Below, piece by piece: positions 474-60,195 of a DNA stretch of 64,000 bases. The notes beneath the pieces are model-generated. The model searched no databases, had not been told where the DNA came from, and saw only the letters and a list, made by a program, of their open reading frames with translations. The position numbers and the translations under genes were made by a program. Positions within the stretch are counted from its first letter, which is position 1, and each line of letters starts with the position of its first letter. The stretch comes from Streptacidiphilus sp. P02-A3a (GTDB lineage: Bacteria > Actinomycetota > Actinomycetes > Streptomycetales > Streptomycetaceae): assembly GCF_014084105.1 (NCBI RefSeq), contig NZ_CP048289.1, positions 2,737,922 through 2,801,921 on the forward strand. The letters are read 5' to 3'.

Positions 474-1046
474 CTACCAGCCGGCGTTCGGGAACAGTTC
501 GCGGACCGTCGGCAGCGCCGCGTCCAGCACCGTGCCGAACCAGACCGAGAACGGCTTGGCCGCCCGCAGTTCCGCCAGTTCCGCCGGGGTCACGAAGCGG
601 GTGTCCGCGACCTCCTCCGGGTTCGGCCGCTGGGTGGCCTCGGCGATCCCGACGAACAGGTGGTTGTACTCCTGTTCGACCAGCCCGGTCGCCTCGTCCG
701 GGTGGTTGTAGGTGACCGTCCCCGCCTGTTGCAGTCGGACCGGGCCCGCGCCCAACTCCTCCGCGGTGCGCCGGGCGGCGGCCACGAACGGCGGCTCGCC
801 GGGATAGGGGTGACCACAGCACGTGTTCGACCAGACGCCGGGGGAGTGGTACTTCCCCAGCGCCCGCCGCTGCAACAGCATCCGTCCTTCGGTGTCGAAC
901 AGGAATACCGAGAAAGCCCGGTGCAGTCGACCAGGACTCCGATGCGCGGACAACTTTTCGGCCGTACCGATGGTGCGGCCCTCGGTGTCGACGAGCTCCA
1001 GCAGGATCTCGGTCGCGCTCAGAGTCGTTGGTTCGCTGGTCGGCAT
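474..1046 (-). CDS. idi: isopentenyl-diphosphate delta-isomerase, type I
   Basis: 190 residues. Interconverts isopentenyl and dimethylallyl diphosphate in the cytoplasm for isoprenoid synthesis. The Nudix-like type I fold is clear: the segment around residues 66-100 reads SPGVWSNTCCGHPYPGE followed by RRTAEELG, matching the cysteine loop and Nudix-like helix of E. coli Idi (catalytic Cys equivalent to C77). EQEYNHLFVG near residue 125 carries the second catalytic acid. The ATG at 1046 is preferred over the longer start at 1097 because it has an AAAGG-type ribosome site just upstream and homologues begin close to this point. It is divergent from the nucleotidyltransferase operon across about 210 bases, so the two may share a control region. 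Confidence 0.93.
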   Translation of the reverse strand: MPTSEPTTLSATEILLELVDTEGRTIGTAEKLSAHRSPGRLHRAFSVFLFDTEGRMLLQRRALGKYHSPGVWSNTCCGHPYPGEPPFVAAARRTAEELGAGPVRLQQAGTVTYNHPDEATGLVEQEYNHLFVGIAEATQRPNPEEVADTRFVTPAELAELRAAKPFSVWFGTVLDAALPTVRELFPNAGW

Positions 1047-1258
1047 GGATGAGGACCTTTCGGCTCGTGACTGCCGGGCTCGCAGCTGTCCGGTCATATC
1101 GATGCCGACAGTCTGCCGTACGTACGCCCTCCGCTTCAGCGAGACGCCCCCAAGAGGGTCCCGCGTCCCGCGTGACCTTCACATTCGCCTACGATCGCGG
1201 GTAGCTTGCACCCTTGCCCGCAGCACTGACGCATGAAGTACAGAGAGTGAGACACCCC

Positions 1259-2014
1259 ATGATCGGCCTCGTTCTGGCCGCCGGCGCCGGACGCCGGCTC
1301 CGCCCGTACACCGACACCCTCCCCAAGGCGCTGGTGCCGGTGGACGGCGACCGGACCATCCTCGACCTGACCCTCGGCAACTTCGCCGAGGTCGGCATCA
1401 AGGAGGTCGCCATCGTGGTCGGATACCGGGCCGAGGCCGTCTACCAGCGCAAGGCCGCGCTGGAGGCGCAGTACGGGCTCACCCTCCGCCTGGTGGACAA
1501 CGACAAGGCCGAGGAGTGGAACAACGCCTACTCCCTGTGGTGCGCCCGGGAGCTGTTCAGCGAGGGCCTGCTGCTCGCCAACGGCGACACCGTGCACCCG
1601 GCCTCGGTGCAGCGCACCATGCTCGACGCCAACGCCAGGCTCACCGCCGAGGGCAGTGCCCCGGGCGTGCTGCTCGCCCTGGACACGGTGAAGCAGCTCG
1701 CCGACGAGGAGATGAAGGTCGTCGTCGACCCCGAGCTCGGCATGCGCCGGATCACCAAGCTGATGGATCCCGCCGAGGCCACCGGCGAGTACATCGGCCT
1801 CACCGTGATCAACCCCTCCGCCGCCGAGGACCTCGCCTCCGCGCTCCAGGCCACCTTCGAGCGCGACCCGCAGCTGTACTACGAGGACGGCTACCAGGAG
1901 ATGGTGAACCGGGGGCAGCGCGTCGACGTGCAGCCCATCGGCGAGGTCTCCTGGGTCGAGATCGACAACCATGACGACCTTGCCAAGGGACGGGAGATCG
2001 CGTGCCAGTACTGA
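1259..2014 (+). CDS. sugar/polyol-phosphate nucleotidyltransferase
   Basis: 251 residues with the NTP_transferase fold. The N-terminus LVLAAGAGRRLRP then PKALVPV (Lys 23) is the nucleotide-binding signature, and LLANGDTVH carries the metal-binding aspartate. Related proteins are often annotated phosphocholine cytidylyltransferase or NTP transferase; they couple a phosphorylated small alcohol or sugar to CTP or another NTP. Start at ATG 1259 follows AGAGAGTGAG; the upstream ATG at 1214 would add residues with no homology. The next gene overlaps its stop by 13 bases, so they are translationally coupled. Given the dehydrogenase and CDP-alcohol transferase that follow, I infer that it makes a CDP-alcohol, perhaps CDP-glycerol of the sn-1 series. 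The substrate is not proven. Confidence 0.85.
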   Translation: MIGLVLAAGAGRRLRPYTDTLPKALVPVDGDRTILDLTLGNFAEVGIKEVAIVVGYRAEAVYQRKAALEAQYGLTLRLVDNDKAEEWNNAYSLWCARELFSEGLLLANGDTVHPASVQRTMLDANARLTAEGSAPGVLLALDTVKQLADEEMKVVVDPELGMRRITKLMDPAEATGEYIGLTVINPSAAEDLASALQATFERDPQLYYEDGYQEMVNRGQRVDVQPIGEVSWVEIDNHDDLAKGREIACQY

Positions 2015-3069
2015 CCCGACTGGTCCCCTCGCCGCTGGTGGTCGACATCCGGGCCGGGGCCCTGAACGACCTCGGGCTGATCCTCGCCGACCAGCGGATC
2101 TCCGCGTCCGGCCGGATCGCCGTCGCCGTCAGCGGCGGCTCCGGGGCCGCGCTGCGCCAGCGGCTGGCCCCGCAGCTCCCCGGCGCCGAGTGGTACTCGG
2201 TCGCGGGCGGCACCCTGGACTCCGCCGTCCTGCTGGCCGAGCAGATGCGCTCGGGCCACTACGACGCGGTGGTCGGCCTCGGCGGCGGAAAGATCATCGA
2301 CGCCGCCAAGTACGCCGCCGCCCGGGTCGGCCTGCCCATGGTCGCGGTCGCCACCAACCTCGCCCACGACGGCCTCTGCTCCCCGGTCTCCACCCTGGAC
2401 AACGACGCCGGCCGCGGCTCCTACGGCGTACCCAGCCCGATCGGCCTGATCGTCGACCTCGACGTGATCCGGCAGGCCCCGCACCGCTTCGTCGCGGCCG
2501 GGATCGGCGACGTCGTCTCCAACATCTCCGCCTGCGCCGACTGGGAGCTCTCCAAGCGGGAGACCGGTGAACAGGTGGACGGTCTGGCCGTCGCCATGGC
2601 CCGCAGCGCCGGAGAACTGCTGCTGCGCCACCCGGGCACGATCGCCGACGACTCGCTGCTGGTCGCCCTCGCCGAGTCGCTGGTGCTCTCCGGGATCGCG
2701 ATGAACATCGCCGGCAGCACCCGGCCCTCCAGCGGCGCCTGCCACGAGATCAACCACGCCATCGACATCCTCTACCCCACCCGCTCGGCCCAGCACGGCG
2801 AGCAGTGCGGCCTCGGCGCGGCCTTCGCCACCTACCTGCGCGGCGACCTCGGCCTCACCGGGCAGATGATCGAGGTACTCCAGCGCCACGGGCTACCGGT
2901 GACGGCGGGCCAGATCGGCTTCAGCGACGAGGAGTTCGTCGCCGCCGTGCACTACGCTCCACAGACCCGCCCAGGACGCTTCACCGTCCTGGAGCACCTC
3001 GACCTCGACACCCCTGCCATCCGGGACGCGTACAACGACTATGTCAAACACGTCAGCTCCTGCTCCTGA
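2002..3069 (+). CDS. sn-glycerol-1-phosphate dehydrogenase-like, iron-containing ADH family
   Basis: 355 residues. LGGGKIIDAAKY (about 93-104) is the NAD(P) diphosphate-binding loop. NLAHDGLCSP (119-128), AGIGDVVSN (166-174), SGACHEINHA (244-253) and AQHGEQCG (263-270) resemble archaeal EgsA and Bacillus AraM more than ordinary glycerol or alcohol dehydrogenases. Likely metal ligands are D170, H248 and H265. Members of that family reduce dihydroxyacetone phosphate to sn-glycerol 1-phosphate; others use different phosphorylated ketones, so the exact substrate is inferred. GTG 2002 follows GGGAG, and the gene overlaps both neighbours. No geranylgeranylglyceryl-phosphate synthase lies nearby, so a full archaeal lipid route is not visible; CDP activation fits the neighbours better. 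Confidence 0.8.
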   Translation: MPVLTRLVPSPLVVDIRAGALNDLGLILADQRISASGRIAVAVSGGSGAALRQRLAPQLPGAEWYSVAGGTLDSAVLLAEQMRSGHYDAVVGLGGGKIIDAAKYAAARVGLPMVAVATNLAHDGLCSPVSTLDNDAGRGSYGVPSPIGLIVDLDVIRQAPHRFVAAGIGDVVSNISACADWELSKRETGEQVDGLAVAMARSAGELLLRHPGTIADDSLLVALAESLVLSGIAMNIAGSTRPSSGACHEINHAIDILYPTRSAQHGEQCGLGAAFATYLRGDLGLTGQMIEVLQRHGLPVTAGQIGFSDEEFVAAVHYAPQTRPGRFTVLEHLDLDTPAIRDAYNDYVKHVSSCS

Positions 3070-3889
3070 ACGATCCGGCCAACCCGAGCGGCCCGGCCGT
3101 TCCGGTGGCGGCAAGCCCACTCTCGCCGAGTTCCGCGCCGTCGCCCACCCCGAGGGCCTGCTCGACCGCCGCTCCGGCGAGCACTGGGCGGGCCGCATCT
3201 ACATGCGCCGGATCTCCTCCCGCATCACCCGGCACCTGATCGACGCCCCGGTCAGCCCCAACCAGCTGACCTGGCTGATGATGTTCACCGGGATCCTCGG
3301 TGGCGCCGCCCTGCTGGTCCCCGGGCTCACCGGGGCGATCCTGGCGGCCCTGCTCATCCAGGCGTACCTGGGCCTGGACTGCGTCGACGGTGAGCTCGCC
3401 CGTTGGCGCAAGCAGACCTCCACCACCGGGGTCTACCTGGACCGGGTCGGCCACTACCTGTCCGAGGCCGCGCTGCTCACCGGCGCCGGGCTGCGCGCCG
3501 CCGACCTGTTCAAGCAGCACGGCGGCCCCGCCTGGATGTGGGCCTTCCTCGGCACCGTGGCCGCGCTCGGCGCGATCCTGATCAAGGCCGAGACCGACCT
3601 GGTCGACGTCGCCCGGATCCGGCGGGGCCTGGCGGCGGTCGAGGACACCGCCTCGGTGCCGCGCGCGGCCGGTGTGGCCAGGGCCCGCAAGCTCGCCGCC
3701 GCGCTCAAGTTCCACCGGCTGATCGGCGGGGTCGAGGCCTCGCTGGTGCTGCTCGCGGCCGGAATCGCCGACAGCGTCCACGGGGACCTGCTGTTCACCA
3801 GGATCGCGGTCGCGGTGCTCGCCGCCATCGCTGTCCTGCAGACCGGGCTGCACCTGCTCAGCATCGTCCTCTCCAGCCGGCTCAGGTGA
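3041..3889 (+). CDS. CDP-alcohol phosphatidyltransferase family membrane protein
   Basis: 282 residues, integral membrane. The family signature D-x2-D-G-x2-A-R-x8-G-x3-D-x3-D sits at residues 113-138: D113, D116, G117, A120, R121, G130 and D134 are present, but the fourth aspartate, usually the catalytic base, is H138 (LDRVGHYL). A soluble Pro/Gly-rich head of about 50 residues precedes hydrophobic segments near 75-110 and several more to the C-terminus. The family moves a phospho-group from a CDP-alcohol to a second alcohol, or attaches the CDP-bound alcohol to an acceptor. ATG 3041 lies inside the preceding gene (29-base overlap). With its two upstream partners it is the likely user of the CDP-alcohol. 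The D-to-H change may be a subfamily trait or may alter chemistry. Confidence 0.85.
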   Translation: MSNTSAPAPERSGQPERPGRSGGGKPTLAEFRAVAHPEGLLDRRSGEHWAGRIYMRRISSRITRHLIDAPVSPNQLTWLMMFTGILGGAALLVPGLTGAILAALLIQAYLGLDCVDGELARWRKQTSTTGVYLDRVGHYLSEAALLTGAGLRAADLFKQHGGPAWMWAFLGTVAALGAILIKAETDLVDVARIRRGLAAVEDTASVPRAAGVARARKLAAALKFHRLIGGVEASLVLLAAGIADSVHGDLLFTRIAVAVLAAIAVLQTGLHLLSIVLSSRLR

Positions 3890-3894
3890 CGGCG

Positions 3895-4779
3895 GTGTCC
3901 GACGAACTCAGGCTCGGCGCGGTCGTGCTCACCATGGGCAACCGCCCGGCGGAGCTCACGGCGCTGCTCGACTCGGTGGCCGCGCAGCACGGACCGGCGA
4001 TCGAGGTGGTCGTGGTCGCCAACGGCGTCGACGTGCCGCCGCTGCCCGAGGGCGTGCGCGGCATCAGGACCGAGCAGAACCTCGGCATCCCCGGCGGGCG
4101 CAACGTCGGCATCGAGGCCTTCGGCGCCGACGGCTCCGAGGTGGACGTGGTGCTCTTCCTCGACGACGACGGCCTGCTGCCGCAGCCCGACGACGCCGAG
4201 AAGCTGCGGGCGGCCTTCGCCGCCGACCCGCGCCTGGGCATCGTCAGCTTCCGCATCGCCGACCCGGACAGCGGAGAGACGCAGCGCCGCCACGTCCCGC
4301 GGCTGCGCGCCGCCGACCCGCTGCGCTCCTCCCGGGTGACCACCTTCCTCGGCGGCGCCAGCGCCGTCCGCAGCGCGGTCTTCGCCCAGGCGGGGCAGCT
4401 CCCGGGGGAGTTCTTCTACGGCCACGAGGAGACCGACCTGGCCTGGCGGGCACTCGACGCCGGGTGGGAGATCGAGTACCGCGCGGACATCCTGCTGCAC
4501 CACCCCAAGACCGCGCCCAGCAGGCACGCGGTCTACAACCGCAACATCGCCCGCAACCGGGTCTGGCTCGCCCGCCGCAACCTGCCCGCGCCACTGGTCC
4601 CGGTGTACCTGGGTACCTGGGTGCTGCTGACCCTGGCCCGGCGGCCCTCCGGCGAGGCGCTGCGGGCCTGGTTCGGCGGCTTCGCCGAGGGGTGGCGCAC
4701 GCCCTGCGGCCCGCGCCGCCCGATGCGCTGGAGCACCGTCTGGCGGATGACCAGGCTGGGCCGCCCACCGGTGATCTGA
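3895..4779 (+). CDS. family 2 glycosyltransferase
   Basis: About 294 residues, GT-A fold. The N-terminus GAVVLTMGNRP, then NLGIPGGRNVGI and LFLDDDG (the DxD-type metal site), are typical of GT2 enzymes; FYGHEETDLAWR is the late acceptor or catalytic-base motif. A C-terminal hydrophobic stretch (PVYLGTWVLLTLA) suggests membrane association. It would transfer a sugar from a nucleotide sugar to a lipid or polymer acceptor on the inner face of the membrane. I use GTG 3895 because AGGTGA ends five bases upstream; GTG 3886, overlapping the previous stop as GTGA, is the alternative. The longer in-frame reading upstream overlaps the CDP-alcohol transferase and is not real. A strong hairpin follows. 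Confidence 0.85.
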   Translation: MSDELRLGAVVLTMGNRPAELTALLDSVAAQHGPAIEVVVVANGVDVPPLPEGVRGIRTEQNLGIPGGRNVGIEAFGADGSEVDVVLFLDDDGLLPQPDDAEKLRAAFAADPRLGIVSFRIADPDSGETQRRHVPRLRAADPLRSSRVTTFLGGASAVRSAVFAQAGQLPGEFFYGHEETDLAWRALDAGWEIEYRADILLHHPKTAPSRHAVYNRNIARNRVWLARRNLPAPLVPVYLGTWVLLTLARRPSGEALRAWFGGFAEGWRTPCGPRRPMRWSTVWRMTRLGRPPVI

Positions 4780-4781
4780 GA

Positions 4782-4807
4782 GCCGACACCCCGGCGCGGG
4801 TGTCGGC
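4782..4807 (+). terminator. hairpin between glycosyltransferase and ABC permease
   Basis: GCCGACACCC (4782-4791) and GGGTGTCGGC (4798-4807) are perfect ten-base arms around the six-base loop CGGCGC. There is no T-run. It could end most transcripts from the four upstream genes or act as a processing/attenuation point before the permease. Confidence 0.6.
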
Positions 4808-4844
4808 ACTGCCGCGGGCGCCGCTCTCATGAGACGGTCGGAGA

Positions 4845-5744
4845 GTGAGCGAGTACAGCGGCAGCGTCGACACCCGCCCGAACCTCAGCGGCGCCGAACT
4901 CGCGGCGGCGCACGGCCTGTCCATCACCGGCAGACGGCCACCGCTGCCCAGCTACACCCGGCAGCTCTGGTCGCGGCGGCACTTCATCATGGCCTTCGCC
5001 ACCGCCAGGCTCACCGCGATGTACACGGCGGCGCGGCTGGGGCAGATCTGGCAGGTGATGACGCCGCTGCTGAACGCCGCCGTCTACTACCTGATCTTCG
5101 GCCTGCTGCTGGGCACCAACCGGGGAATCCCCAACTTCATCGCCTACCTCTGCACCGGCGTCTTCGTCTTCCAGTTCACCCAGTCGGCGGTCCTCGCGGG
5201 CACCCGTTCGATCGCCGACAACCTGGGGCTGATCCGGGCACTGCACTTCCCGCGGGCCTGCCTGCCGATCGCCTTCACGGTGATCCAGCTCCAGCAGCTG
5301 ATCTTCTCCATGGGCGTGCTCGCGGTGATCGTGCTGGCCACCGGGGAACCCGTCAGCTGGCGCTGGCTGCTGATCTTCCCGGTGCTGCTGCTCCAGTCGG
5401 TCTTCAATGCCGGGCTCGCGCTGTTCATGGCCCGGATCGGTGCCAAGACCACCGACATGGCGCAGCTCATGCCGTTCGTGCTGCGCACCTGGATGTACCT
5501 GTCCGGCGTCTTCTGGAGCGTCAGCAGCTTCACCTCGGACGCCCCGGGCTGGGTCTCGGCGGTGCTGAACCTCAACCCGGCGCTGATCTTCAACGACCTG
5601 ATGCGGTACGCGCTGATGATGTCGGTGCCCGCCTCGCTGCTGCCGAGCCACGTCTGGCCGGTGGCGATCGGCTGGTCGGTGCTGGTGGGGCTGGCCGGGT
5701 ACGTGTTCTTCTGGCGGGCCGAGGAGGAGTACGGCCGGGGCTGA
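4845..5744 (+). CDS. ABC-2 type polysaccharide/teichoic-acid export permease
   Basis: 299 residues, TagG/Wzm-like. A cytoplasmic N-terminal half-helix region (about 30-60, including RHFIMAFATARLTAMYTAARLGQIWQ cut as YTAARLGQIWQ) precedes six hydrophobic segments, in the ABC-2 membrane fold. Family members form the channel that flips undecaprenyl-linked wall polymers or O-antigen outward, working with a separate ATPase (TagH/Wzt). No ATPase gene follows: the next gene is convergent and unrelated, so the partner must lie elsewhere. GTG 4845 is the start. The position behind the CDP-alcohol and glycosyltransferase genes suggests it exports their product. Confidence 0.85.
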   Translation: MSEYSGSVDTRPNLSGAELAAAHGLSITGRRPPLPSYTRQLWSRRHFIMAFATARLTAMYTAARLGQIWQVMTPLLNAAVYYLIFGLLLGTNRGIPNFIAYLCTGVFVFQFTQSAVLAGTRSIADNLGLIRALHFPRACLPIAFTVIQLQQLIFSMGVLAVIVLATGEPVSWRWLLIFPVLLLQSVFNAGLALFMARIGAKTTDMAQLMPFVLRTWMYLSGVFWSVSSFTSDAPGWVSAVLNLNPALIFNDLMRYALMMSVPASLLPSHVWPVAIGWSVLVGLAGYVFFWRAEEEYGRG

Positions 5745-11318: not shown

Positions 11319-12602
11319 TCACCAGACCCGGACCCCGGCGCCGCGGGCGAAGGCCGGGCTGGTCGCGCCGGGCGGGGGCGCCGCGAGCGGCACGGCGACT
11401 TCGGTGACCAGCGGGCCGACCTTTGCCGCCAGCGCGTCCAGCGCGGGCAGGTCGAATCCGTAGACCCGGGCCGCGTTGCCGCCGACCATGGCCGCCACCT
11501 CGGACCGGGGGAGCCCCGCGTAGGCGGTGCGCAGCGCCTCGGTGCTGTGCGGCCAGGTGCCCTCGTCGTGCGGGTAGTCGCTGCCCCACATGATCTTGTC
11601 GAGGCCGATCCGGTCGCGCAGCGGCACCTCGTGCGCCCGCATGAAGCTCGCGCCGACGAAGCAGTTGCGCTGCCAGACGGCGCTCGGGCGCTCGCCCATG
11701 GTCTCGGCCAGGCCCGAGCCGAACCGGGACTCGGCGGTGGCCGCCCGGGTGTCCGAACCGACCAGGCGCTGGTGGTAGTAGTCCAGCATGTCGAGCACCC
11801 CCGGGATCCAGCCCGAGCCCTGCTCGGTCAGCACCAGCCGCAGCCCGGGGTGGCGCCGGAACGCCCCGCCGAAGACCAGGTGCCACAGCGCCCGGTGCGA
11901 GAACCAGGTGGTCTCCACCATGAACACCGCCCGCGCCGCCGGTTCGCTGCCCAGCTCCGGGCCGGCCGAGCCGCCGTGGTGGTTCACCGGTACGCCGAGT
12001 TCCGCGCACACCGCCCAGAGCGGGTCGTACACCCGCGAGTGCAGCTCCGGCACCGGCGCGCCGGGCGGGACACCAGGGAGCACCACTCCGCCGGTCAGGC
12101 CCGCCGCGTGGCAGCGCCGGACCTCGGCCACGGCCTCGTCCACGTCACCCAGCAGCAGTTGGAAGGTCCCGGCCCGGCGGCCCGGGGCCTGCGCGCAGAA
12201 GTCGGCCATCCACCGGCTGTGCGCCCGGAGCCCGGCCCAGCGCAGCCGGAACTCCTCGCCGCCGACGGGGTGACCGGCCGTCAGCGAGGCGCTCGGGTAG
12301 AAGGGCGGGACGGTGTTCGGGAACACCACCTCGGCGACGATCCCGTCCGCCTCCAGCTCCGCGAGCCGTCGCGGGGAGTCCCAGTTCCGCTCGGCCTCGG
12401 GGGCCTGCAGGTCGGCATAGGGATTGACATAGGCGGCTGCCCAGGCGTCGAACGCGTCCTGGTGCCGCGCCGCCAGATAGAGGCGGTAGTCCAGCAGGTC
12501 GGCCCCGGCATGGCAGTCGGCGGAGATGACCGTGTAACGCTCGGGCCGCTCCGGCGGTTCGGTTCGCTCCGGCTGTTCGGCGTGTGGAGGTTGCCCGGTC
12601 AC
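11319..12602 (-). CDS. amidohydrolase family protein (copy A)
   Basis: 427 residues, PF04909-type metal-dependent TIM barrel. VISADCHAG (strand 1, with D-C-H where other members have HxH), PVNHHGG (strand 5) and IMWGSDYPHDEGTWPHS (strand 8 catalytic Asp) are visible. Family members hydrolyse C-N or C-C bonds or decarboxylate aromatic acids. GTG 12602 overlaps the stop of copy B as GTGA. It is the last gene of the operon and clearly paralogous to copy B, sharing the same motif order with a shorter body. The substrate is unknown; the neighbours suggest catabolism of a cyclic or keto-acid compound. Confidence 0.85.
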   Translation of the reverse strand: MTGQPPHAEQPERTEPPERPERYTVISADCHAGADLLDYRLYLAARHQDAFDAWAAAYVNPYADLQAPEAERNWDSPRRLAELEADGIVAEVVFPNTVPPFYPSASLTAGHPVGGEEFRLRWAGLRAHSRWMADFCAQAPGRRAGTFQLLLGDVDEAVAEVRRCHAAGLTGGVVLPGVPPGAPVPELHSRVYDPLWAVCAELGVPVNHHGGSAGPELGSEPAARAVFMVETTWFSHRALWHLVFGGAFRRHPGLRLVLTEQGSGWIPGVLDMLDYYHQRLVGSDTRAATAESRFGSGLAETMGERPSAVWQRNCFVGASFMRAHEVPLRDRIGLDKIMWGSDYPHDEGTWPHSTEALRTAYAGLPRSEVAAMVGGNAARVYGFDLPALDALAAKVGPLVTEVAVPLAAPPPGATSPAFARGAGVRVW

Positions 12603-13924
12603 AGCGTGTTCCCTTCTGTCGGTACGGCGGTGCCGACGAAGGGGAAGTCCCGTCCGGTCAGCCAGTGCCGTCCGACCTCCCGGGCCGGGGCCCAGGCGGC
12701 CAGTACCGGCCGCTGGTCCTCCGGCTGGCCCAGCTCGGCGGGGGCCGGCCCGATCCGCTGCGCGATCGGCGCGAGCCTGTCCAGGTCGAAGCCGAAGACC
12801 TCGGCGCAGGAGAGTCCCAGCAGCTGCCGGGTCTCGTCGACCGGGATGTCGTGGAAGGAGGTGCGCATCCACTCGCGGGTGTTCGGCCAGGTCCCCTCCG
12901 GGTGCGGGAAGTCACTGCCCCAGCAGATATTGCCCACCCCTATCTCGTAGCGCTGGGCCAGCTCCCGCCGCTTGGTGTTGGTCGCCGCGATGAAGCAGTT
13001 GCGGTCCACGTACGCGCTGGGAGCCATGGTCAGTTCGGCGAACGGGGACAGCTTCTTGCCGCCGTGCGCGCCCAGGTACAGCCGGTCCATGAACCACAGC
13101 AGATTGGGCAGCCACCAGCAGCCGGACTCGGCCACGCCGAAGCGCAGGTCGGGGAAGCGCTCGAACACCCCGGACCACAGCAGGAACCACAGCGGGCGTG
13201 ACGGCCAGAAGGTCACCTCGGTGACGTAGATGCCCAGGTGGTCGCCGTACTCGTGGCGTGGAGCCGCGCCCGAGTGGGTCAGCACCGGCATCCGCAGCTC
13301 CGCGCACACCGCCCACACCGGGTCGTAGCGGCGGTCGTGGTACGGCGGCCGGTCCACCCACATCGACGGGATCATGACCGCGCCCAGGCCGGACGCGTGC
13401 GCACGCCTGACCTCGGCCACCACGGTCGGCACGTCCCCGGTGACCGGAAGCAGGGCCACCCCGCAGTGCCGCTCCGGGGCGGCGCTGCTCGCGACGAACT
13501 CCGCCAGCCAGCGGTTGTGCGCCCGCGCCCCGGCCATCCCGAGCACCGGATCCTGGTCGCCGCTGAGCCCCAGGCCCACGCCGAAGGGGGCGGCGGTGCC
13601 GCTGTCGACCGCGTCCGCGTCCGGGAACACGACCTCGCCCGCGACGCCGTCACCGTCGAGCTCCTTCTCCCGGCGCGCCGGGTCCCACCCGCCGCGCAGC
13701 CCCTCCTCGTGCTCGGCGAACCACTTCCGGGCGAAGGCCTCGTTGCGGACGCCGAGCCGGGTGGCCTCGGCCCGGCGGTGCTCCGCCTGGGCCAGGAACT
13801 CGTCGAAGGCGCGGTGGTGCGCGGCCTCCAGATAGGGCCGGTACTGCTCGGTCGGCAGTCCGGCGTGGCAGTCGGACGAGATGACCAGGTACGGGTCGTC
13901 CCGGCGCTGGGATCCGGCGCTCAC
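12599..13924 (-). CDS. amidohydrolase family protein (copy B)
   Basis: 441 residues, same PF04909-like barrel as its neighbour: VISSDCHAG at the N-terminus, MPVLTHSGAAP in the middle and NICWGSDFPHPEGTWPNT near the end. An insertion of about 40 residues after position 50 (NEAFARKWFAEHEE region) distinguishes it from copy A. The two copies probably arose by tandem duplication and may work in series or as a heteromer. GTG 13924 overlaps the SDR stop as GTGA. In-frame extension upstream to 14554 lies over the SDR gene and is rejected. Confidence 0.85.
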   Translation of the reverse strand: MSAGSQRRDDPYLVISSDCHAGLPTEQYRPYLEAAHHRAFDEFLAQAEHRRAEATRLGVRNEAFARKWFAEHEEGLRGGWDPARREKELDGDGVAGEVVFPDADAVDSGTAAPFGVGLGLSGDQDPVLGMAGARAHNRWLAEFVASSAAPERHCGVALLPVTGDVPTVVAEVRRAHASGLGAVMIPSMWVDRPPYHDRRYDPVWAVCAELRMPVLTHSGAAPRHEYGDHLGIYVTEVTFWPSRPLWFLLWSGVFERFPDLRFGVAESGCWWLPNLLWFMDRLYLGAHGGKKLSPFAELTMAPSAYVDRNCFIAATNTKRRELAQRYEIGVGNICWGSDFPHPEGTWPNTREWMRTSFHDIPVDETRQLLGLSCAEVFGFDLDRLAPIAQRIGPAPAELGQPEDQRPVLAAWAPAREVGRHWLTGRDFPFVGTAVPTEGNTL

Positions 13925-14814
13925 GTCTCCTCCTCCAGGATGAAGCGTTCCAGGTAGGCGGGGTTGCTGCGGTCCAGCATCGACCGGGCCCTGGCCTGGA
14001 TCTGGCGGTCGCTGTGGTCGCTCGGCGGCAGCATCCAGAAGCGGTCGGCGCGGATCCCGTCCACCACGGCGGCGGCGACCTGCTCGACCGGGGTGAACTC
14101 GATCGGCTGCCCGGCGGCCGCCATCGCCGCCTCCCACTGCGCGAGGCTGCGGTAAGGGGTGCGGCGTGGGCGCTCCTTGGCGAAGCGCTGCGGGCGGTTG
14201 CGGTGCGACTCCCACAGCCCGGTGCGCAGCATGTGCGGCCCCGGGAACAGCACCGACGCGCCGATCGGGGCCCGCTCCGCGCGCAGGTGCGCGTAGAGCG
14301 ACTCGGTCATGGTGACCACGGCGGACTTGGTCACCGCGTACACCGAGGCCGTCGGCAGCGGTGCGATGCCGCCGTCGGAGGAGGAGGTGTTGACCACGTG
14401 GCCCGGGCCGCCCGCCTCCAGCATCCGGGGCAGGAACGCCTGGATCCCGTGGAAGACACCCCACACGTTCACCGCGAAGGCCCACTTCCAGTCGTTGGGT
14501 TCGTGCTCCCACATCCGGCCCTCGGCGCCGGAGCCGACCCCGGCGTTGTTGCACAGCACGTGCACCGCGCCGAAGACGCCGTAGGCGGCGTCGGCCAGCG
14601 CCCGCACGCTGTCGGGCTCGGAGACGTCGGTGACCCGTCCGACGGCCTCCGCCCCGCGCTCGCGCAGACTCGCCACGGCCTTGTCCAGTGCCGGCTCCTC
14701 GACGTCGGCCAGGACCACCCGCAGCCCCTCGGCGGCGAAGCGCTCGGCCATCGCCAGTCCGATGCCGCCGGCCGCCCCGGTGACCACGGCGACCTGCCCG
14801 GGGAGGAGTTCCAT
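13921..14814 (-). CDS. SDR-family NAD(P)-dependent oxidoreductase
   Basis: 297 residues, classical short-chain dehydrogenase. VVTGAAGGIG (9-18) binds the cofactor, and the acidic DVEEP after the second strand favours NAD(H). CNNAGVG, the catalytic Ser of NTSSSDGG, and YAVTK complete the Asn-Ser-Tyr-Lys tetrad. The ATG at 14814 shares bases with the previous stop (TGATG), showing tight coupling to the acetoacetate-decarboxylase-like gene. It would oxidise or reduce a hydroxyl/keto group on the operon's substrate. Confidence 0.9.
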   Translation of the reverse strand: MELLPGQVAVVTGAAGGIGLAMAERFAAEGLRVVLADVEEPALDKAVASLRERGAEAVGRVTDVSEPDSVRALADAAYGVFGAVHVLCNNAGVGSGAEGRMWEHEPNDWKWAFAVNVWGVFHGIQAFLPRMLEAGGPGHVVNTSSSDGGIAPLPTASVYAVTKSAVVTMTESLYAHLRAERAPIGASVLFPGPHMLRTGLWESHRNRPQRFAKERPRRTPYRSLAQWEAAMAAAGQPIEFTPVEQVAAAVVDGIRADRFWMLPPSDHSDRQIQARARSMLDRSNPAYLERFILEEET

Positions 14815-59416: not shown

Positions 59417-60016
59417 CTAGCGGATCCGGCCGAACCAGACCTCGTCGGTCCAGATCCGCTCCCGCCGCACCCGGGCGCCCGGGTGCGGCGAGTGCCAGAT
59501 CTCGTTCTGCCCGGCGTAGATCCCCACGTGGTAGACGTAGCCGCCGGCGGTGTGGAAGAAGACCAGGTCGCCCGGGACCAGCTGGCCGCGGGAGATGTGC
59601 TCCACGCTGTCGTACTGGGCCTGGGCGGTCCGCGGCAGCTGCCGACCCGCGTGCCGGAACGAGTAGTACGTCAGCCCGGAGCAGTCGAAGGCGTCCGGAC
59701 CGGCCGCGCCCCAGAGGTACGGGTCGCCGTGCTTGGACTCGGCGATGGTCAGCGCCCGGTCCTCGATGGTGGCGGCGCTCGCCGGGGCGGCCGTCAGCAG
59801 GGTGCTCCCGGCCAGCGCGGCGACGGTGAGCACGGCGGTGGCGGCGGATCGCCAGCGGCCGCTGCGACGGGGCGGCTCACCGCCCTGTCTATGGCTCTGG
59901 ACCCGGGCTTCCTGGTGCTGCGGTTGTCGGCCCCGGCCGACCGGCCGGGGCGCGGCCGAGGCGTCGGCCCGGGGGTGGGACTGGGTCGGGGCAGATGTGT
60001 GCGCGGACGCGGTCAT
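59417..60016 (-). CDS. secreted NlpC/P60 peptidoglycan hydrolase
   Basis: 199 residues. A long basic, His/Gln-rich N-terminal region precedes a signal helix (near 60-80, TAVLTVAALAGSTLLTAAPASA). The NlpC/P60 domain has the catalytic Cys in AFDCSGLTYYS, the His in YHVGIYAG, and the third polar residue in IWHSPHPG. It cuts gamma-D-Glu/diaminoacid links of the wall peptide. ATG 60016 follows GGAAGGA. Upstream is a long leader with a c-di-AMP riboswitch, the usual control for such hydrolases in streptomycetes. Confidence 0.9.
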   Translation of the reverse strand: MTASAHTSAPTQSHPRADASAAPRPVGRGRQPQHQEARVQSHRQGGEPPRRSGRWRSAATAVLTVAALAGSTLLTAAPASAATIEDRALTIAESKHGDPYLWGAAGPDAFDCSGLTYYSFRHAGRQLPRTAQAQYDSVEHISRGQLVPGDLVFFHTAGGYVYHVGIYAGQNEIWHSPHPGARVRRERIWTDEVWFGRIR

Positions 60017-60032
60017 GCGGGTCCTTCCGGAA

Positions 60033-60195
60033 CCGCCTGCGGAAGTTCTCCCTGTCGGGTTTGGGCTCCGAAAGCTGCCCTGCCACGGCTGTGGCTTCAC
60101 CCCAAGATGCGCTCTGGCGGAACGCACCGGCCTGCCTGGGTCTCCCGCTCCCGTCTGTCAGGTGTATGCGCACCCGGCGCCCGACCGGTGACGGG
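60033..60195 (-). ncRNA. c-di-AMP (ydaO/yuaA-type) riboswitch
   Basis: Read on the minus strand the leader contains, in order, GGAGCGGGAGACCC (60138-60151), GGGGTGAAGCC (60093-60103), CAGCTTTCGGAGCCC (60063-60077) and AACCCGACAGG (60051-60061), the conserved blocks of the actinobacterial c-di-AMP riboswitch. It lies 17 bases upstream of the NlpC/P60 start, so c-di-AMP probably turns the wall hydrolase gene off. Limits are approximate. Confidence 0.83.

Follow-up and report, generated by a model that had tools for sequence, protein, structure and literature searches.

A predicted CDP-sn-1-glycerol gene set in Streptacidiphilus with a CDP-alcohol phosphotransferase lacking its fourth signature aspartate

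What use could an actinobacterium make of sn-glycerol-1-phosphate (sn-G1P) activated by CTP? The question is raised by five co-directional genes at positions 1259-5744 of the window, the 64,000-nucleotide stretch C1:2737922-2801921 of the 9.33-Mb chromosome of Streptacidiphilus sp. P02-A3a. They encode a nucleotidyltransferase, an Fe-ADH_2 family dehydrogenase, a CDP-alcohol phosphotransferase (CDP-AP), a family 2 glycosyltransferase (GT2), and an ABC-2 permease. Together they are proposed to supply and use CDP-activated sn-G1P for a teichoic-acid-type envelope glycopolymer, a proposal to which we give about an even chance. The CDP-AP of this set lacks the residue held to be the catalytic base of its family.

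A conserved set around a predicted sn-glycerol-1-phosphate dehydrogenase

The original prediction described five genes, the first four overlapping, and their coordinates, the GC content at third codon positions (GC3), and Pfam matches bear this out. The overlaps are 13, 29, and 4 bp, the GT2 gene having a GTG start within a GTGA overlap, and a gap of 65 bp precedes the permease gene. GC3 is high in all five frames (0.93-0.97), and each product matches a Pfam model above its curated cut-off (PF00483, 47 bits; PF13685, 99; PF01066, 34; PF00535, 47; PF01061, 45). The set is flanked by a divergent idi gene before it and a convergent CtaG-type gene after it.

Gene families, order, and conservation can be read directly from the genomes. 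Eight relatives (57-76% protein identity) show the same gene order, as does the annotation of a named record, S. fungicidicus NZ_CP023408. Among 80 named loci, the best 80 of 582 relatives from one scan and not an even sample, the nucleotidyltransferase gene adjoins the dehydrogenase gene on the same strand in 77, with both tested motifs present in all 77 proteins; no nucleotidyltransferase match was found in the DNA examined at the remaining three. Because the order persists in relatives and the pair in 77 of these 80 loci, a chance arrangement is ruled out. The dehydrogenase has one match in the host genome and at least one in each of the 14 genomes of the genus, and of 150 genomes from the host's family, 148 carry this CDP-AP. 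All eight family relatives first examined carry, in this order, a DUF5941-CDP-AP, the nucleotidyltransferase, the dehydrogenase, the CDP-AP, the GT2, the permease, an ATPase, hpnC, hpnD, and hpnE, and S. fungicidicus is annotated with the same succession. A Streptomyces synteny block, araM/tagGH/crtB, that is consistent with this order is described in PMC13118837.

The dehydrogenase is most likely an sn-glycerol-1-phosphate dehydrogenase (G1PDH) rather than a glycerol dehydrogenase, as judged by profile, sequence, and predicted fold, distant members included, and is predicted to act on dihydroxyacetone phosphate (DHAP). Its best NCBIfam model is NF002022 (NAD(P)-dependent G1PDH) at 233 bits, as compared to 83 bits for glycerol dehydrogenase and 18 bits for AroB, so that the family assignment first proposed survives the profile comparison. 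The sequence ranking against the PDB is headed by the Methanocaldococcus jannaschii G1PDH (4rgq, E 1.5e-42) and 3ce9, deposited as a glycerol dehydrogenase (1.1e-40); lower in the list are Bacillus subtilis AraM (9h4x, 1.1e-21) and the T. maritima glycerol dehydrogenase (1kq3, 1.5e-19). For the AlphaFold model (predicted local distance difference test score, pLDDT, 93.2), the top nine Foldseek matches are chains of the M. jannaschii G1PDH with template modeling (TM) scores of 0.81-0.83, followed by 3ce9 (TM 0.87-0.88). An aspartate and two histidines serve as metal ligands in this family. The GDxxSN motif, the HG motif, and the second histidine can be aligned with the M. jannaschii enzyme and hold in eight aligned sequences (the window and seven others), with glutamate replacing aspartate in one. 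Actinobacterial G1PDH homologues, one from Streptomyces, already appear in a published G1PDH tree (PMC5059525).

The nearest solved relative of the nucleotidyltransferase is LicC, a CTP:phosphocholine cytidylyltransferase (1jyk, E 3.8e-13). The protein, presumably COG1213-like, is therefore predicted to be a LicC-like CTP:phospho-alcohol cytidylyltransferase, its nucleotide and its substrate both being predictions. CpgD, a cytidylyltransferase called COG1213, activates phosphoglycerate and gives no product from glycerol-1-phosphate (PMC12275187); thus, the substrate cannot be read from homology.

The CpgD precedent is one of several points that weigh against the proposal. The 233 bits of the dehydrogenase fall below the curated NF002022 cut-off of 413, as do the 246-261 bits of four relatives scanned, and B. 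subtilis AraM stands only at rank 20 among the fold matches, amid glycerol dehydrogenases. The CpgD precedent and the score below the cut-off would suit a reading in which the dehydrogenase and nucleotidyltransferase act on another small phospho-polyol or acid, with sn-G1P not involved. This alternative is nonetheless quite unlikely, given that three methods agree on the G1PDH ranking, distant members included.

Membership in the G1PDH family, together with an idi gene next door, would also fit an archaeal-type ether lipid, in which G1P is prenylated as in the Bacillus AraM-PcrB pathway. That route is strongly disfavored, to the point of being hardly credible, and is rejected on the distribution of PcrB/GGGPS (PF01884), which was found in none of 61 family genomes, the host included. 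The same model finds matches in 7 of 14 control genomes, those of B. subtilis and four archaea included, and its cut-off is passed in 5.

In the proposed glycopolymer pathway, the dehydrogenase would convert DHAP to sn-G1P, from which the nucleotidyltransferase would form CDP-(sn-1)-glycerol. In a primer or linkage step, the CDP-AP would then transfer phosphoglycerol to an acceptor in the membrane, which may be a polyprenyl-phosphate-linked unit, after which the GT2 would add a sugar and the permease, with a separately encoded ATPase, would export the product. TagF/TarF-type polymerases elsewhere in the genome may draw on the same CDP-glycerol, which would replace the TagD/glycerol-3-phosphate route. 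These reactions and their chirality are our inference, as are the nature of the acceptor and of the polymer and the partnership of permease and ATPase. Of the pathway originally predicted, G1PDH identity, CTP-type activation, membrane transfer, and export are retained, by inference, as one conserved set; its novelty, its exporter, and its lipid attachment cannot be kept as written.

A phosphotransferase without the fourth aspartate

The nearest solved structure to the CDP-AP, both by sequence and by fold, is AF2299 (4o6m, 4q7c). The AlphaFold model (pLDDT 85) has the membrane fold of the family, with AF2299 as the best Foldseek match (E 1.5e-6, TM 0.57, root-mean-square deviation 5.4). The donor pocket of AF2299 holds the glycerol of CDP-glycerol (PMC4634129). 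Class I CDP-APs share an eight-residue signature, D1xxD2G1xxAR...G2xxxD3xxxD4, in which D4 is the likely catalytic base, and a D-to-N change at D4 nearly abolished the activity of a homologue (PMC4634129). The window CDP-AP keeps seven of the eight residues, and D4 is replaced by His138. An alignment error can be rejected, as the seven other signature residues align.

The substitution is a property of the whole type. Of 203 distinct segments, 101 belong to the window's type, and these have histidine (61) or alanine (40) at D4 and never aspartate; the 102 segments of other types all have aspartate. An earlier round of the count comprised 99 segments of the window's type and 100 of other types. 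Segments were collected with a regular expression that needs D1, D2, G1, R, G2, Ala or Ser before R, Asp, Asn, or Glu at D3, and enough flank, and that would miss other variants; the type label is based on a DCxDGE motif. Aspartate is also kept at D4 in the five DUF5941-type CDP-APs first read and in the host's four other CDP-AP proteins. In a tree of 125 of 199 segments, which took in 20 of the 38 alanine rows then known and left the outlying ones out, the window's type forms one branch with a support of 96/99 and long-branch warnings. When all 101 rows of this type are put into a quickly built tree, histidine is the root state with four changes to alanine, which include a named Streptomyces and Nonomuraea.

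The alanine variants have company. An Asp-bearing DUF5941-CDP-AP lies next door in all 12 alanine-type operon loci with the upstream gene read (L037-L044, L202, L205, L240, L241), which makes decay an unlikely explanation of the alanine. Histidine-type operons occur with and without such a neighbor. A search of the host genome for a DUF5941-CDP-AP found none; the host's histidine-type enzyme is therefore without this Asp-bearing partner. The juxtaposition with alanine-type enzymes, a correlation only, hints at a division of labor. Lone alanine-type CDP-AP paralogues are seen at L208 and L213, with neither G1PDH nor partner in the 17 kb read.

The D-to-N loss in the homologue (PMC4634129) bears on the proposal unfavorably, in that a CDP-AP without D4 may be inactive. 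Attachment to a lipid, as first written, is no more than putative for an enzyme that lacks this presumed catalytic base. If the enzyme is active, either the histidine would act as the base or the acceptor would need none, as could be the case for an anionic phosphate. A more specific version of the proposal is an enantiomeric actinobacterial teichoic-acid route, in which G1PDH and a LicC-like enzyme making CDP-sn-1-glycerol replace TagD's CDP-sn-3-glycerol and the Asp-free CDP-AP primes a lipid carrier via an anionic acceptor, e.g., polyprenyl phosphate. No general base would be needed because the acceptor is already anionic. We hold this version only tentatively and regard it as doubtful. In any case, the Asp-free clade offers a naturally occurring case in which to test how catalysis proceeds when the canonical base is missing.

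The relatives of the CDP-AP also bring in a different kind of product. Neither AF2299 nor DIPP synthase is a lipid-processing enzyme (PMC4634129). In Micromonosporaceae the nucleotidyltransferase-G1PDH-CDP-AP trio is kept with a CDP-AP of a different type, which favors the main proposal, but no match to the GT2 or ABC genes of the set follows it at these loci. The trio could accordingly make a soluble or lipid small molecule rather than a polymer; a diglycerol-phosphate-like osmolyte and a glycerophospholipid head group would be examples. This is unlikely in view of the GT2 and ABC-2 exporter of the host's family, the adjacency of TagF, and an LCP-type family nearby in some lineages.

Export and the link to teichoic acids

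The best NCBIfam model for the permease is a galactan export permease, at 55 bits and below the cut-off of 380, and no ABC ATPase gene lies beside it in the window. The original prediction had the window genes export the product, for which no complete exporter is present there. A candidate ATPase is encoded in the same genome at C1:3162356-3163102, beside hpnC/D/E and 0.4 Mb from the set, and is 73% identical to the ATPase of a relative. A second permease copy also lies beside hpnC/D/E (L072:6306-7199) and is 75% identical to the window permease, so that the host holds two permease copies and one close ATPase orthologue. Permease and ATPase genes follow in all eight family relatives first examined, and both occur within the DNA examined at 13 of the 31 named loci with this CDP-AP (from the best 80 of 582). 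Within the genus, L217 keeps the ATPase, and L215, L216, and L218 have none in the 17 kb read; the operon is split within the genus. The window permease likely pairs with the distantly encoded ATPase. A defunct exporter is not favored, given the ATPase orthologue and second permease elsewhere in the genome.

Most often in the host's family, idi is on one side of the set and hpnC/D/E on the other, and idi falls within the DNA examined at many family loci. Such a neighborhood raises the prospect of a hopanoid- or isoprenoid-linked glycophospholipid, in which the product would be attached to a hopanoid or another isoprenoid made by the neighboring genes. In S. coelicolor, sco6750 (isopentenyl diphosphate isomerase) appears in a list of sigma-E targets, and the hopanoid cluster is ppGpp-responsive (PMC6767563, PMC2374992). 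A match to hpnC/D/E at E 1e-12 occurs in none of the 80 named loci, of other families (best 80 of 582), and the two blocks are 0.4 Mb apart in the host; a hopanoid-linked product is thus very unlikely.

The teichoic-acid-type glycopolymer remains the preferred reading, and it draws on the distribution of TagF. The TagF-type family PF04464 is present in 28 of 31 family genomes and has four matches in the host, one of which is closest to TarF (209 bits, cut-off 550). The TagD model TIGR01518 has no match in the host and none over the cut-off in the 31 family genomes, 13 of which have weaker matches; in control genomes it finds matches in 12 of 14, 2 over the cut-off. The two genomes of these 31 that are without the CDP-AP, G321 and G324, are also without PF04464, and G318 is without PF04464 only (Fisher p 0.0065). 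The double loss in G324 may be one deletion because the CDP-AP set and TagF adjoin in genus g200. TagF is divergent from, and next to, the set-starting DUF5941 gene at every one of the five loci covered in genera g200 and g202, two of which were picked because TagF had already been placed near the set. A distant lineage, G121, has a TagF gene beside the nucleotidyltransferase-G1PDH pair and in divergent orientation to it; in G204, TagF adjoins a DUF5941-CDP-AP and an ABC transporter, the trio being elsewhere.

A sample of the phylum extends the association. Of the 14 genomes that have a G1PDH of at least 49% identity, 12 carry PF04464 (E 1e-20), versus 11 of the 282 other genomes. With the host's family set aside, the corresponding values are 3 of 5 versus 11 of 282 (Fisher p 9e-4), with one of the three, G108, having two weak matches only; shared ancestry inflates all of these association values. 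At 16 of 88 loci, a member of an LCP-type ligase family, of which one protein was scanned, is encoded in the vicinity of the set. One host TagF gene has a GalU-like nucleotidyltransferase as its neighbor. With respect to stereochemistry, TagF-like capsule polymerases can incorporate both enantiomers from racemic CDP-glycerol, free sn-G1P being assumed absent from A. pleuropneumoniae (PMC8262930).

Besides the selected loci, the weak G108 matches, and the shared ancestry, other observations count against the link. The host TagF genes are far from the set, and no TagF match at E 1e-15 occurs in the 80 named loci (best 80 of 582). Both S. antibioticus and S. griseus carry ribitol-phosphate polymers, and in the latter species a TarIJ gene is close to TagF (PMC13274773); TagF therefore need not imply CDP-glycerol and may use CDP-ribitol. 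The S. griseus polymer has terminal glycerol-phosphate too (PMC13274773), so a source of activated glycerol would still be needed.

Two further arrangements involve related genes. In four family genomes (L225-L228), a weak TagD-like match (65-67 bits, below the cut-off) lies within ~1.5 kb of another CDP-AP with aspartate at D4, possibly a separate CDP-alcohol pathway. S-layer-homology domains bind secondary wall polymers, and proteins with such domains are encoded near the set in two distant actinobacteria (L047:12373-14223 and L048:15125-16990).

Table 1. Genes of the set and its conserved neighbor, in window coordinates
Feature	Position	Strand	Basis
Nucleotidyltransferase, predicted CTP:sn-glycerol-1-phosphate cytidylyltransferase, 251 aa	1259..2014	+	PF00483/PF12804; LicC 1jyk
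sn-Glycerol-1-phosphate dehydrogenase family protein (EgsA/AraM-like), 355 aa	2002..3069	+	PF13685; NF002022; 4rgq; fold
Class I CDP-alcohol phosphotransferase (CDP-AP), 282 aa, His138 for fourth signature Asp	3041..3889	+	PF01066; AF2299
GT2 glycosyltransferase, 297 aa	3886..4779	+	PF00535 47 bits, scanned from 3892
ABC-2 type permease, 299 aa	4845..5744	+	PF01061
Isopentenyl-diphosphate isomerase idi, conserved neighbor, not claimed for pathway	474..1097	-	NF002995 201 bits > cut-off 127

Elsewhere in the window, a c-di-AMP (ydaO/yuaA) riboswitch at 60019-60180 (-) scores 38.2 bits against a gathering score of 38 and overlaps the start of the open reading frame at 59417-60127, which, from its translation, we take to resemble an NlpC/P60 protein. 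A riboswitch of this kind is ordinary for actinobacteria. Two adjacent reading frames, 11319-12872 (-) and 12599-14554 (-), have similar translations with an SxDCHAG motif in both and are apparently tandem hydrolase paralogues.

Comparison with known systems

The window dehydrogenase shares family, length, motifs, and predicted fold with the archaeal EgsA and Bacillus AraM. Unlike them, it scores below the curated cut-off and is partnered with a predicted cytidylyltransferase, PcrB/GGGPS being found in none of the 61 family genomes. The CDP-AP resembles AF2299, which accommodates CDP-glycerol, in sequence and in fold; AF2299 has the D4 aspartate and a fused cytidylyltransferase-like domain, whereas the window has histidine at D4 and separate enzymes. 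The araM/tagGH/crtB block of PMC13118837 apparently comprises the same genes, named by family only; in the excerpt of that paper, no G1P pathway is proposed and the missing aspartate is not mentioned. A search of the open-licence literature, with subscription papers outside it, found in the excerpts no proposal of a CDP-sn-1-glycerol route in actinobacteria.

A polymer built on the sn-1 form had been predicted to be new in bacteria. It is not, as lipoteichoic acid is already an sn-glycerol-1-phosphate polymer with the same stereochemistry as that predicted here; in B. subtilis, wall teichoic acid is sn-3 and lipoteichoic acid is sn-1 (PMC7086022). The new element would be the CDP activation of sn-G1P, not sn-1 polymers in themselves. 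Known lipoteichoic acid is made by LtaS from phosphatidylglycerol. Clear LtaS orthologues are reported to be lacking in actinobacteria, where the synthesis of glycerol-phosphate teichoic acids is described as open, and the polyglycerolphosphate lipoteichoic acid of S. hygroscopicus closely resembles its wall teichoic acid (PMC3196553). In Streptomyces and related genera, the set may provide the activated glycerol for teichoic acids that has so far lacked a source.

One paper takes the AraM-dependent pathway as restricted to the Bacillales ether lipid (PMC8262930). If the CDP-G1P route is true, bacterial use of sn-G1P is wider than this. Such a route would supply activated glycerol and predicts sn-1 stereochemistry. 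Wall teichoic acid synthesis by TagD, TagB, TagF, and TagGH proceeds through activated glycerol phosphate, priming, polymerization, and ABC export, a logic common to the window set. The set differs in having a G1PDH-nucleotidyltransferase pair for TagD, with the opposite enantiomer as the predicted product, and a CDP-AP at the place of TagB.

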